Shown here piece by piece: positions 140 to 3,988 of a DNA stretch of 64,000 nt (within the stretch, counting starts at the first letter, position 1; every line of letters starts with the position of its first letter). The notes beneath the pieces were generated by a model, which did not search any database, was not told where the DNA came from, and saw only the letters and a program-made list of their open reading frames with translations. The position numbers and the translations under genes are program-made. The DNA comes from Alphaproteobacteria bacterium (lineage in GTDB: Bacteria > Pseudomonadota > Alphaproteobacteria > JAVJVX01), in the NCBI GenBank assembly GCA_040220875.1, contig JAVJVX010000009.1, positions 372,001 to 436,000 on the forward strand, written 5' to 3'.

Positions 140-2911
140 CTACCGCACAAGCGCAAGCTTACGGGAAAGGATGATAGCCTGCATCCGGGAGTGAACGCCA
201 AGCTTGGAAAACACGTTCTGAAAATGCCATTTCACAGTGGTATTTCGAATGCCAAGCTCTCGGGCAATTTCGCTGGTGGTCAAGCCTGCAGCCGCCAGGT
301 CGAGTACTTTCCGCTCCGTCCCTGTCAGGCTGATCTCGTTGTCCCCGAATTGACGCCATGCCAGACTTCGCTGGCAATCGGTTTCCAGGGGAACTGACCG
401 ACCAGTTACCTCGAGGAAACGATCGAGAAAGTGGTTGGAGGGTTTGAGTGGCAGCGCCGGATGAGGTTCGCTCCGCCCGCGACGAAGTCCCTCAACCAAC
501 TCCGCTAAGTCCTGCCCCTCATCGACCAGAGTGGTTAGGTAGGCCCGCTCTTCGGCGTTGGCCAGCACTTCACGAAGGACCTTGTGGGCTGCGGGCGGCC
601 CTTTTGTCTTTAAAGTTGCATCGGCCAGAAGGATGTTAAGGCGAAGCTCAATACCATCCAGCCCGCTCCCCCTTACTTCAGTTAGGAGTGTCCGAATCCA
701 GCGAGCTGCCCGATCACTAGAGCCGGCAGCCAAGAGATATCGCACGAAACACAGATAAAGGGGCCAGTCTCTATAGCAACAGTTAAAGCCGGGAGGTGGG
801 CTGATTGCTCCCAAGGGAGCCTCGAGCCCCTCGAGTAATTTAAAAGACTCCTGGATATCACCCACACGAATTAGAGCATTCGCCTTTACAATACGCACGT
901 CAATGTTCTGCACACTAAACGGCAAAAGGGACCGGCACTCCCGCGAAAGGCTCTCTGCCTCCTCAATGGTACTCAAGGCCCTGTCATATCTGTTTTCTCT
1001 GAGATCGAAAGCCACGTTGCACAGCTTGATAAGAATTTTCCAGTCCGCACGAAGGGATTGCGCGTTGAGCCGCTCTGCCAGGCGTAAATGTGCACGGCCT
1101 TCTGAGAGGTTACTTTGCTCCAGTTCGTATTGGGCCAATAAGATATGCACGGGCTCGAGTGCCGGCGTATCGCTCTCTTCCAACCGAGCGGCTGTCTTTT
1201 CCGCCTCCTCGCATAGGCGTAGAATGTCTTTCAGACGACCCTGATCTCTTAAAATGTGTCCTTGAAGGTAAGTAACCGTACTGAAGCTGTTTATGGAACG
1301 GTCTTCAAGGAACTGCCGCTTTGCTTTTTCAAGGGCACCGGTTGCCTTGAGGATCTCGTCACGACGCAAATAAATCAGAGCTTGGCCATAGGAGGCCATC
1401 CCGGCCGAGAAGGTGAGCTTCGATCGGCGACGCCCCTCAATTTCCCGTGCCTTCTTGATGTCTGCCCAGTGGGCGTCAACCGAAAGCTGAAGGATCAGAC
1501 GCAATGACTCCATTTCATCTTCAAGGGCATTGATCTGATCAAAATCATATTGTCCCTCATTTTTGTTTTTGTGCATCTCCGCTATGAGGCTTTCCGCCTT
1601 GTCCGCGACGCAACGGGCCTTCTCAATCTCTCCCACCAATAGATGAGCCCAGGCTCGTAGATAAACGACGTTGGCATAACGGTCCCGGAGGTCAGGGGGA
1701 AGCTCTTCGACAAAGTCGATAAAGAGCTCCTGATGTCCTTCATGCAAAAGCTGACGGCCACATTTGTCGACTAACACAGCCGCTCGATCAAAGTATTTGG
1801 CTCGGAGAGCGTGACGAGCGGCTTCAGTCGTCCGGTCATGATCTTCGAACCAGCGGCTCGCACGCAGGTGAAGAAGCTTTCTCCGGTCGGGCATCAAGCG
1901 GGCAAGCCTGCGCTCGAGAAAATCCAGAAAAACGGCATGAAACCGGAACCACTCATTTTCGGCATCAACGAAAAATAGGAACAAGTTCTTGTCATATATC
2001 TTAGTAATGAAACTCTCACTGTCGTCATGCCCCCGGAGTGCATTTGCCAAGCTGGGTGAGACCTCGTCCACGACAGAAATGTCCAACAGAAAGAGCTGCT
2101 CATCCTTGGGTAGCTTGGAAAACACGCTCTCTTCAATAAACTCGTGCAGCATACCCAGGGTATCCTTGGAAACATGCCGAAGCTGCTCGATGTCACTCGA
2201 CGTTTTCCCCGAGACCGCGGCAAGCTGCAGGCCAATGGGCCAGCCTTCCATGGCCTCGTTCAGATCAAAAATTTCCTCATGGGAAAGACCAGAGATAAAT
2301 CCGTTTTCAATCAAGTGAGACAGATCCTCCTCCCCGAAGCGAAGTAAATCGCTACCCACGGTATTTGCGAGGCCGCGGGCTTTTATCTGCCCAAGCTCCA
2401 GAGGTAGAGCGGCGCGGCTTGCCAAGCTGTAATGGGTATTCGACGGCGAGAATCTGATAAGATATTCAACGGCCTTATGGACCCGAGGATTGCTGATCAA
2501 ATGGTAATCATCAAGCATGACCACGAAATTCCGGTCTGCACCGGCCATGACGTTCAGAAAATCTGTGGCTGGAGAATTCGGGATGCCCCTCTCAAGGGCG
2601 AGGCCACCTCCAATTTTCGACTGATTAATCTGCTCTTGGAGAGCAAAATCCAGATGCTGGTGAAATCGGGCCAAGTTGTTGTCGGCCTCGTCCATAGAGA
2701 GCCAGACGACCGCCACACCATGGGGAATAAGATCTTTGCGCCATTGGGCGAGAAAGGTGGTCTTGCCAAAACCGGCGGGTGCAACAACTAGAGTCAGGAG
2801 AGTTTCCCTGCGGAGGATTTTCTCCGTTATCGGCGCAAAAATCCGCTTCCGATTAATCAGCCGCGTGCCGAGGATCGGCGGACGCAGTTTCGTATATAGG
2901 ATCGATGGCAT
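140..2911 (-). CDS. MalT-type LuxR-family transcriptional regulator (large ATP-binding)
   Basis: A 923-residue regulator with the MalT/LAL architecture. The N-terminal STAND-type NTPase has a Walker A (APAGFGKTT, Lys50) and a Walker B (VMLDDYH, Asp134-Asp135). A long helical TPR-like middle follows, and a C-terminal LuxR helix-turn-helix of about 60 residues (LTTSEIARELGIRNTTVKWHF) binds DNA. Members of this family usually sense a small ligand and activate neighbouring genes with ATP bound. No target operon is visible: the left side is the window edge and the right side is a gene fragment. Base composition is clearly AT-richer than in the core genes, which suggests horizontal acquisition. The ligand cannot be inferred. 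Confidence 0.9.
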   Translation of the reverse strand: MPSILYTKLRPPILGTRLINRKRIFAPITEKILRRETLLTLVVAPAGFGKTTFLAQWRKDLIPHGVAVVWLSMDEADNNLARFHQHLDFALQEQINQSKIGGGLALERGIPNSPATDFLNVMAGADRNFVVMLDDYHLISNPRVHKAVEYLIRFSPSNTHYSLASRAALPLELGQIKARGLANTVGSDLLRFGEEDLSHLIENGFISGLSHEEIFDLNEAMEGWPIGLQLAAVSGKTSSDIEQLRHVSKDTLGMLHEFIEESVFSKLPKDEQLFLLDISVVDEVSPSLANALRGHDDSESFITKIYDKNLFLFFVDAENEWFRFHAVFLDFLERRLARLMPDRRKLLHLRASRWFEDHDRTTEAARHALRAKYFDRAAVLVDKCGRQLLHEGHQELFIDFVEELPPDLRDRYANVVYLRAWAHLLVGEIEKARCVADKAESLIAEMHKNKNEGQYDFDQINALEDEMESLRLILQLSVDAHWADIKKAREIEGRRRSKLTFSAGMASYGQALIYLRRDEILKATGALEKAKRQFLEDRSINSFSTVTYLQGHILRDQGRLKDILRLCEEAEKTAARLEESDTPALEPVHILLAQYELEQSNLSEGRAHLRLAERLNAQSLRADWKILIKLCNVAFDLRENRYDRALSTIEEAESLSRECRSLLPFSVQNIDVRIVKANALIRVGDIQESFKLLEGLEAPLGAISPPPGFNCCYRDWPLYLCFVRYLLAAGSSDRAARWIRTLLTEVRGSGLDGIELRLNILLADATLKTKGPPAAHKVLREVLANAEERAYLTTLVDEGQDLAELVEGLRRGRSEPHPALPLKPSNHFLDRFLEVTGRSVPLETDCQRSLAWRQFGDNEISLTGTERKVLDLAAAGLTTSEIARELGIRNTTVKWHFQNVFSKLGVHSRMQAIILSRKLALVR

Positions 2912-2997
2912 CTTAGCCCCCGGAAGTCCGACAATGGTATCTCAACGCGGGGAGCGAATAAATGATCGCCATGTGTGCCCTTATCAGGCTGATATAT

Positions 2998-3453
2998 TTA
3001 AAAAATATTCGGTACCCCACATCCTGACCGTCTGGATGCGTCGTCACCATTCACGGCAACCGCAACTGCACTGCCGCCGGCACCGTTGCCTCGATGGAAA
3101 CCAGCCACAAAGGTTGTGGCTGTCAGTGTGACGCGGACGTCGAGGGGCGGATACAGTTCAAAGGCCCTCGGCTCGCGCGAGAAATTCCAAAGCCGGAACA
3201 GGCACCATTCGGATCTGCGCTCGTCCGCCACTGTGAGTCCGTTGCGTGTGATGTGGAACGGCGTCCGTTCCCACCCTTTCGTCGTCTTTACCTCGATCAG
3301 GCGTGACCGACCGTCCGACGCAAAACTCGCGATGTCGTAGCCTGCGCCATCCCCGTCTTCCTCGGATACCCAACGGATCCTTCGCGCCAGGTCATCACGC
3401 CCCGCCGATCGTACCGATGCCTGCTCATGCGCCAGCACGAGCTCCTCGCCGGC
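2998..3453 (-). pseudogene. 5'-truncated DUF3883-domain gene fragment
   Basis: The reading frame encodes most of a DUF3883 domain (protein NO VEIN C-terminal type): GDGAGYDIASF, then LIEVKTTKG and a Phe/Tyr-rich end (ELYPPLDVRVTLTATTF). The IEVKTT block resembles the D/ExK strand of PD-(D/E)XK nuclease-like folds. Family similarity begins at about 3453 (GEELVLAHEQAS). Immediately upstream the sequence becomes a TonB fragment on the other strand, so the normal N-terminal part is missing. A GTG at 3438 is the only nearby start. About 25 residues follow the usual domain end. In other genomes DUF3883 often sits at the C-terminus of large ATPase or helicase-like proteins, some of them in defence islands, so this is probably a remnant. 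Confidence 0.6.
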
Positions 3454-3644
3454 AGGAGGGCATGGTCCTTTTGTATTTCGTGATCGATCGCGGCGGACGC
3501 GTCCTGGAATACGGCGTGCCGCAGAGCTTTGGGCACGGGCTCCTGGACGACGCCGTCAGGGCCATGATCGAACGCGCCCAGCCCTTGCCGCACCCGCCGG
3601 AAACGGTTGCGGGACTCCGCCTGGAACTTGTCGTACCGGTCTGA
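3447..3644 (+). pseudogene. TonB C-terminal domain fragment
   Basis: This frame reads RRQEGMVLLYFVIDRGG, then VLEYGV, SFGHGLLDDAVRAMIERAQPLP and LELVVPV before a stop. That is the typical C-terminal domain of TonB/TolA-like energy transducers, which contact TonB-dependent outer-membrane receptors. The TM anchor and proline-rich linker are absent: similarity stops at about 3447, where the DUF3883 fragment begins on the opposite strand. No start codon with a ribosome site is convincing. I infer a tonB-like gene that lost its 5' part to the same rearrangement that removed the 5' part of the DUF3883 gene. Confidence 0.65.
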
Positions 3645-3895
3645 TTCGTCCTGCGATAAACAATCTTGTCGTCGCTTTTCTGCCGGAACCCCTGGCACAA
3701 GCCCGGGCCTGGTCAATGCCAATGGCGCAAAGGGCGTGAGCGGCGGGGCAGCCTGGACCGAAGCGCAAGAGATCACGCGCAGGGATGGCTTCGCCAGCGC
3801 CCTACGGAGAAGCGAAAGATGGACGGACGAACTCGGACTGCTTGTGGCGCTGCACGGGGACGGGGCTGGCCAGGGAAGAAACCGGCTTCCGGAGA
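3645..3895. other. Non-coding stretch beside tRNA-Ser
   Basis: About 250 bp lie between the TonB fragment and the 3' end of the tRNA. Open frames exist on both strands, but none has a recognisable domain, a ribosome site or a sensible composition. I see no direct repeat of the tRNA 3' end here, so an attachment site cannot be claimed. Confidence 0.4.
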
Positions 3896-3988
3896 TGGCG
3901 GAGGGGAAGGGATTCGAACCCTCGGTACGGCTTAAAACCGTACAACGGTTTAGCAAACCGCCGCCTTCGACCACTCGGCCACCCCTCC
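3896..3988 (-). tRNA. tRNA-Ser (anticodon GCU)
   Basis: Read on the minus strand, the acceptor stem GGAGGGG (from 3988) pairs with CCCCTCC, followed by discriminator G and an encoded CCA (3896-3898). The anticodon loop reads TTTGCTAAA, giving GCU, which decodes AGC/AGU. A long variable arm (GTACGG/CCGTAC) and the T-loop GGTTCGAATCC complete a class II serine tRNA of 93 nt with CCA. Its 3' end faces the accessory block at 1-3450. Confidence 0.95.

Follow-up and report, generated by a model that had tools for sequence, protein, structure and literature searches.

Accessory DNA that differs in GC from its surroundings and ends beside a tRNA gene is a feature of tRNA-associated genomic islands (Islander database, PMC4383910). 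Ser is listed among the tRNA genes that serve as prophage sites in Rhodobacteraceae (PMC8224337). In the Paracoccus virome, the largest cluster of prophage integration modules is reported to contain 11 of the 15 serine recombinases, and for most serine recombinases in that survey the sites were not identified (PMC6536676). Neither of the latter two sources is among the seven papers found with the term DUF3883 and, judging by titles and the starts of abstracts, none of the papers found describes a module like the one considered here.

The present locus was found in a window of 64,000 nucleotides (C9:372001-436000), the window being the whole stretch of DNA analyzed, taken from a source genome of 2.54 Mb in 9 contigs. 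Like the tRNA-associated islands, the window contains accessory DNA of differing GC that ends beside a tRNA gene; unlike them, its genome gave no match to Pfam Recombinase, its contig no integrase, and a displaced 3' end of a tRNA was not found either. The junction studied here joins parts of two genes. The first resembles the DUF3883/NOV_C genes of alphaproteobacterial serine-recombinase modules in its order and strand with respect to tRNA-Ser and in its DNA, the identity to the module genes reaching up to 85% over 3075-3453, but it lacks about 160 codons, its stop and the module neighbors. The second has the C-terminal domain common to the TonB family (TIGR01352 / PF03544), but it is devoid of the N-terminal part, stops early and has no ExbD nearby.

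Two truncated genes meet at one sharp junction

The genomes available for comparison, 57 relatives and 384 drawn from the class, are all related at the level of class only. Comparisons with relatives indicated that two 5'-truncated genes are joined back to back at one sharp junction (Table 1). When the minus strand was aligned by blastn with 80 DUF3883 relatives, the right edge of the alignment fell at 3453 in 57 of them and at 3454 in 21 (78/80 together), the two exceptions ending at 3393 and 3410. Base agreement with these relatives fell from 85% at 3447-3453 to 23% at 3454-3463. On the plus strand, the agreement of the TonB frame with its relatives was 23/25 at codon 3447 and 0/25 one codon earlier, and it did not exceed 3/25 anywhere in the 15 preceding codons; this comparison used 25 of the 29 relatives fetched, L139, L140, L141 and L145 being left out. 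These results confirmed the original prediction that the similarity of both genes ends at the same place. The common edge, which had been put at about 10 bp (3447-3456), was narrowed to the 7 bp of 3447-3453.

Under a random-junction model at 64% GC, an overlap of at least 7 bp has a p of ~6e-4, an optimistic value since codon bias is ignored. Within the DUF3883 family, however, the overlap is variable at two positions, 3448 (46/80 relatives agreeing) and 3451 (32/80), and the true homology is therefore possibly shorter than 7 bp.

Table 1. Features surrounding the junction (window coordinates).
Feature	Position	Strand	Basis or remark
MalT-like LuxR-family regulator, rightmost gene of the low-GC block	140..2911	-	TPR_MalT and GerE above cut-off
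Family stop position and ~16 bp of 3' flank of the DUF3883 gene	3075..3093	-	Aligns with the 4 closest relatives out of 80
3' part (118-120 codons) of a 278-281-codon gene with C-terminal DUF3883/NOV_C	3094..3453	-	PF13020, relatives
Junction, up to 7 bp fitting both ancestral genes	3447..3453	none	Edges of both alignments
3' part of a tonB-like gene	3447..3659	+	TIGR01352, PF03544, alignment to relatives
Spacer from the tonB remnant to tRNA-Ser	3660..3895	none	Between the two
tRNA-Ser (GCT)	3896..3988	-	Beyond the tonB piece

Both pieces lack the 5' part of their gene and are decayed

The DUF3883 piece matched Pfam NOV_C (PF13020, DUF3883) with E = 3.9e-22 over profile positions 2-89 of 91, which represents a nearly complete domain. 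In intact relatives, NOV_C likewise sets in near residue 160 of the 278. The break thus coincides with the start of the domain, and the cut is evident from the whole gene, not from the domain. Of the 18 relatives read through, 17 had an intact frame of 281 codons, or 278 counted from the ATG, and one had 399. The window piece aligns with intact relatives from their codon 163 on, so that some 160 codons at the 5' side are missing. A search of the source genome with a 281-aa relative matched residues 159-281 at the window piece, and this query did not find the 5' half of the gene in the genome, save for a weak match on C6 (E 0.126). It had been proposed that each gene lacks its N-terminal part; this is correct in that both genes are 5'-truncated, but it is the DUF3883 gene that is cut, its NOV_C domain being almost whole.

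At the other end of this piece, the family stop position (3091-3093) is now a sense codon, and the frame reads through. The similarity to the module has a second edge at ~3075, about 16 bp beyond the gene, the accessory DNA thus being composite in its turn. Past this edge, the small ORF and the recombinase expected next in the module are missing.

The tonB piece matched TIGR01352 (tonB_Cterm, E = 5.9e-11) and Pfam TonB_C, the matches setting in at profile position 8-12 (12 of 79 for TonB_C). Its closest TonB relative showed 63% over 65 aa. The N-terminal anchor/linker of TonB is absent, the codons before 3447 being unrelated to those of the 25 relatives. The frame contains an ATG at 3462 and is interrupted by an early in-frame stop (3642-3644), five codons ahead of the family stop position (3657-3659); one TGA lies within the PF03544 match. 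Both pieces are therefore decayed, the tonB piece having an early stop and the DUF3883 piece having lost its own.

A full TonB query run against the genome matched only this fragment. The genome's other TonB, on C7, was detected by the family model and missed by this query, whose silence on the tonB 5' half is therefore weak evidence. No ExbD was found near the tonB piece, the sole ExbD found being on C3. In L122 and L123, which come from two genomes of one genus, a TonB gene runs towards an opposite-strand tRNA-Ala(CGC), a similar layout with a different tRNA.

The junction lies between a low-GC block and tRNA-Ser(GCT)

The DUF3883 remnant lies 442 bp from tRNA-Ser(GCT), with the order and orientation of the module kept. 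The chance of lying within 500 bp of one of the four Ser tRNAs is about 4e-4; a tRNA scan placed those for CGA, GGA and TGA at other sites of the genome. No terminator-like site passed the scan of the spacer, and the spacer is devoid of the end sequence that trails tRNA-Ser in module-bearing relatives, this sequence being absent directly after the CCA of tRNA-Ser(GCT).

On the left, a low-GC block of roughly 25 kb extends from ~C9:350000 to about position 3000 of the window, with a GC of 0.49-0.57 (about 53%). Its flanks are mostly at 0.59-0.67, with dips to 0.54-0.58. GC steps from 0.52 (2501-3000) to 0.64 (3251-3750) at the block edge, and the tonB piece has the backbone-like value. The regulator at the right end of the block matched the MalT model NF003420 with E 2.8e-84, yet under the cut-off of this model. 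A catabolic-type cluster lies to its left: two of the seven block proteins scanned were Rieske oxygenases, and the other five were one each of DUF1329, FAD-binding, short-chain dehydrogenase, luciferase-like and amidohydrolase proteins. Inspection of L146 by eye revealed a second MalT-like gene with similar oxygenase/DUF1329-like genes further left, in DNA of normal GC.

DUF3883 genes usually end a mobile module in relatives

In its family, the DUF3883 gene is usually an end gene of a mobile module. Many alphaproteobacteria (L039, L045, L052, L053, L149, L182 and others) carry the DUF3883 gene together with a small HTH-like ORF, a serine recombinase and, in L182, DUF2924. The serine recombinase was present in 51/80 loci and the small ORF in 62/80, some loci stopping at contig ends. 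The position of tRNA genes was assessed in those 74 loci whose upstream DNA spans 1100 bp or more. A tRNA-Ser (GGA, TGA, GCT or CGA) was found upstream on the same strand in 36 of them, with its 3' end 826-879 bp ahead of the position equivalent to window 3447. One locus had tRNA-Arg and 37 had no tRNA within 1.5 kb upstream, indicating that tRNA-Ser is not the invariable site of the module or of the gene. The six loci excluded from this count include L043, with tRNA-Ser at the usual distance; L049 and L056, with tRNA-Ser beyond 1.5 kb upstream, were scored as having none.

A start like CATTCAGATACTGAATCC was seen by eye directly after CCA in 12/22 tRNA-Ser flanks, across four anticodons. The module end, also judged by eye, consists of a GC-rich repeat and then T's shortly beyond the tRNA CCA. 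L039 and L038 are 95.6% alike, L038 having no recognized tRNA at this place, and the DNA that they have in common starts within the final 10 bases of the tRNA in L039. We infer that the module's recombinase itself acts at tRNA-Ser.

Among 43 IMG/VR loci, the recombinase was present in 41 and tRNA-Ser in 8, and a full DUF3883 gene was outermost at the contig end in 14. One IMG/VR contig contains DUF3883, a phrog_14161 protein, a Resolvase/Recombinase protein matching phrog_95 (integrase) and DUF2924. Remoter DUF3883 relatives were found in 1204 plasmid records, of which 1184 are under 60% identity, and a 64% relative on a Paracoccus plasmid has Tni and IS genes as its neighbors instead. The DUF3883 gene has no firm phage assignment: neither the remnant nor the intact L182 protein had a PHROG match, and deposited phages contain partial relatives only.

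In the window, the remnant retains the same-strand placement of DUF3883 3' of tRNA-Ser. The module end, the small ORF, the recombinase and the DUF2924 gene are all missing beside it, and Pfam Recombinase (PF07508) gave 0 matches in the whole genome at E up to 1.

Search for the ancestral arrangement

The nearest genome by GatB was G204 (71% identity), and one further genome of its order, G095, was compared. Both have TonB, and neither has tRNA-Ser within about 1.5 kb of it. More broadly, a scan of 28 of the 29 TonB loci (L125 was left out) showed no tRNA-Ser within about 1.5 kb of TonB, and no TonB was found in 19 tRNA-Ser loci and one non-tRNA locus, mostly scanned over 1.5 kb on each side. 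A pre-deletion state was thus not observed among these relatives of class level. The TonB piece was absent from 80 + 43 DUF3883 loci, as were DUF3883, the small ORF and the recombinase from the 29 TonB loci. Two arrangements had been named beforehand as arguing against a junction, namely the same short genes in this order or a continuous ancestral gene across the site; neither was seen in these DUF3883 and TonB loci.

Discussion

Taken together, these findings suggest that 3447-3453 is probably a fossil recombination junction, at which a deletion or other illegitimate joining fused the tails of a DUF3883 module gene and of a tonB-type gene next to tRNA-Ser(GCT). The accessory region on the left would have carried the DUF3883 gene, terminal gene of a serine-recombinase module of the type known from sites just 3' of tRNA-Ser, and the tonB-type gene would have stood between it and tRNA-Ser(GCT). 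The joining, presumably a deletion, would have used a short GC-rich homology of at most 7 bp and removed both 5' halves with the intervening DNA, thereby fusing the tails. The remains show no evident function and are in decay. The resident status of tonB and the order of these events are likewise presumptive. As in microhomology-mediated deletions, both partners lose similarity sharply at one place and share a short homology (≤7 bp) at the join.

The order tRNA-Ser / tonB / DUF3883 is not given by simple integration of the module, whereas it does result if a deletion fuses tRNA-adjacent tonB to a DUF3883 gene lying to its left. Simple integration of the module into tRNA-Ser(GCT) was rejected: the module end is absent after CCA, and the order would place tonB beyond the module. 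Nor did the deletion take a Ser tRNA with it, GCT, CGA, TGA and GGA all being still in the genome. The original prediction of a resident tonB cut by accessory DNA was upheld as to the exactness of the junction, the mobile-element origin of the DUF3883 piece and the backbone-like GC of the tonB piece; it did not find support as to the residency of tonB at tRNA-Ser, as tonB did not adjoin tRNA-Ser in any relative scanned.

We considered whether the locus could have grown by accretion at a tRNA-Ser hot spot, tonB having come with a second element between tRNA-Ser and an older DUF3883 module, and a later deletion having fused both. Successive integration at one tRNA is expected to yield the order tRNA-Ser / tonB / DUF3883 / block, and the module adjoins tRNA-Ser in 36/74 loci. 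Yet the second element was not found: besides the lack of Pfam Recombinase matches, none of the five Phage_integrase matches (tyrosine integrases) in the genome is on C9. Furthermore, the 25-base 3' end of the tRNA-Ser, searched for as an att repeat with up to 3 mismatches, was confined to the four Ser tRNAs, and the GC of the tonB piece is backbone-like. We regard this course of events as unlikely.

Insertion of the low-GC block into tonB, with the DUF3883 piece as the block end on arrival, appears improbable. The block does stop only ~400 bp left of the junction, but the DUF3883 piece is itself cut, with its second edge at about 3075, and a search of the rest of the genome did not reveal the 5' half of tonB, though this is a weak test.

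The absence of the junction from all loci compared would also be consistent with a chimera in the source assembly. This is very improbable, as the site is inside a 519-kb contig and an artefact would not account for the decay of both pieces. A 7-bp overlap is, in addition, far below what assemblers use. Finally, the nearly complete NOV_C starting at the junction and the ATG at 3462 in the TonB frame would fit two functional single-domain proteins lying back to back by chance, a hardly credible reading given that full-length relatives extend past the break in both families, that the tonB piece is without an N-terminal region and stops early, and that the DUF3883 piece overruns its stop.

On this reading, the junction is a case of ordinary genome erosion. 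It is a clean example of accessory DNA eroding beside a tRNA, with two decaying gene tails and a short overlap. The integration module that emerged as a by-product is possibly undescribed and matters more, because a serine recombinase with a fixed neighbor at tRNA-Ser genes of four anticodons suggests a testable attachment site. Our tentative proposal, which we put slightly below even chances, is that the DUF3883 piece is a fossil left by a widespread integration module, as yet unnamed, which consists of the DUF3883 gene, the small HTH-like ORF, the serine recombinase and DUF2924. The end of the module would abut the 3' end of tRNA-Ser genes with these four anticodons, and DUF3883 would be its fixed terminal gene. 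The window would then record the wearing away of this module at a tRNA hot spot.

Among deposited phages, the closest counterparts of the intact module's recombinase were in Acidithiobacillus phage AcaML1 (50% over 98%) and Wolbachia phage WO (~41% over 93%). In contrast with the recombinase, full-length DUF3883 relatives were not found in deposited phages, the 6 records each covering under half. The term DUF2924 occurs in the Wolbachia literature.
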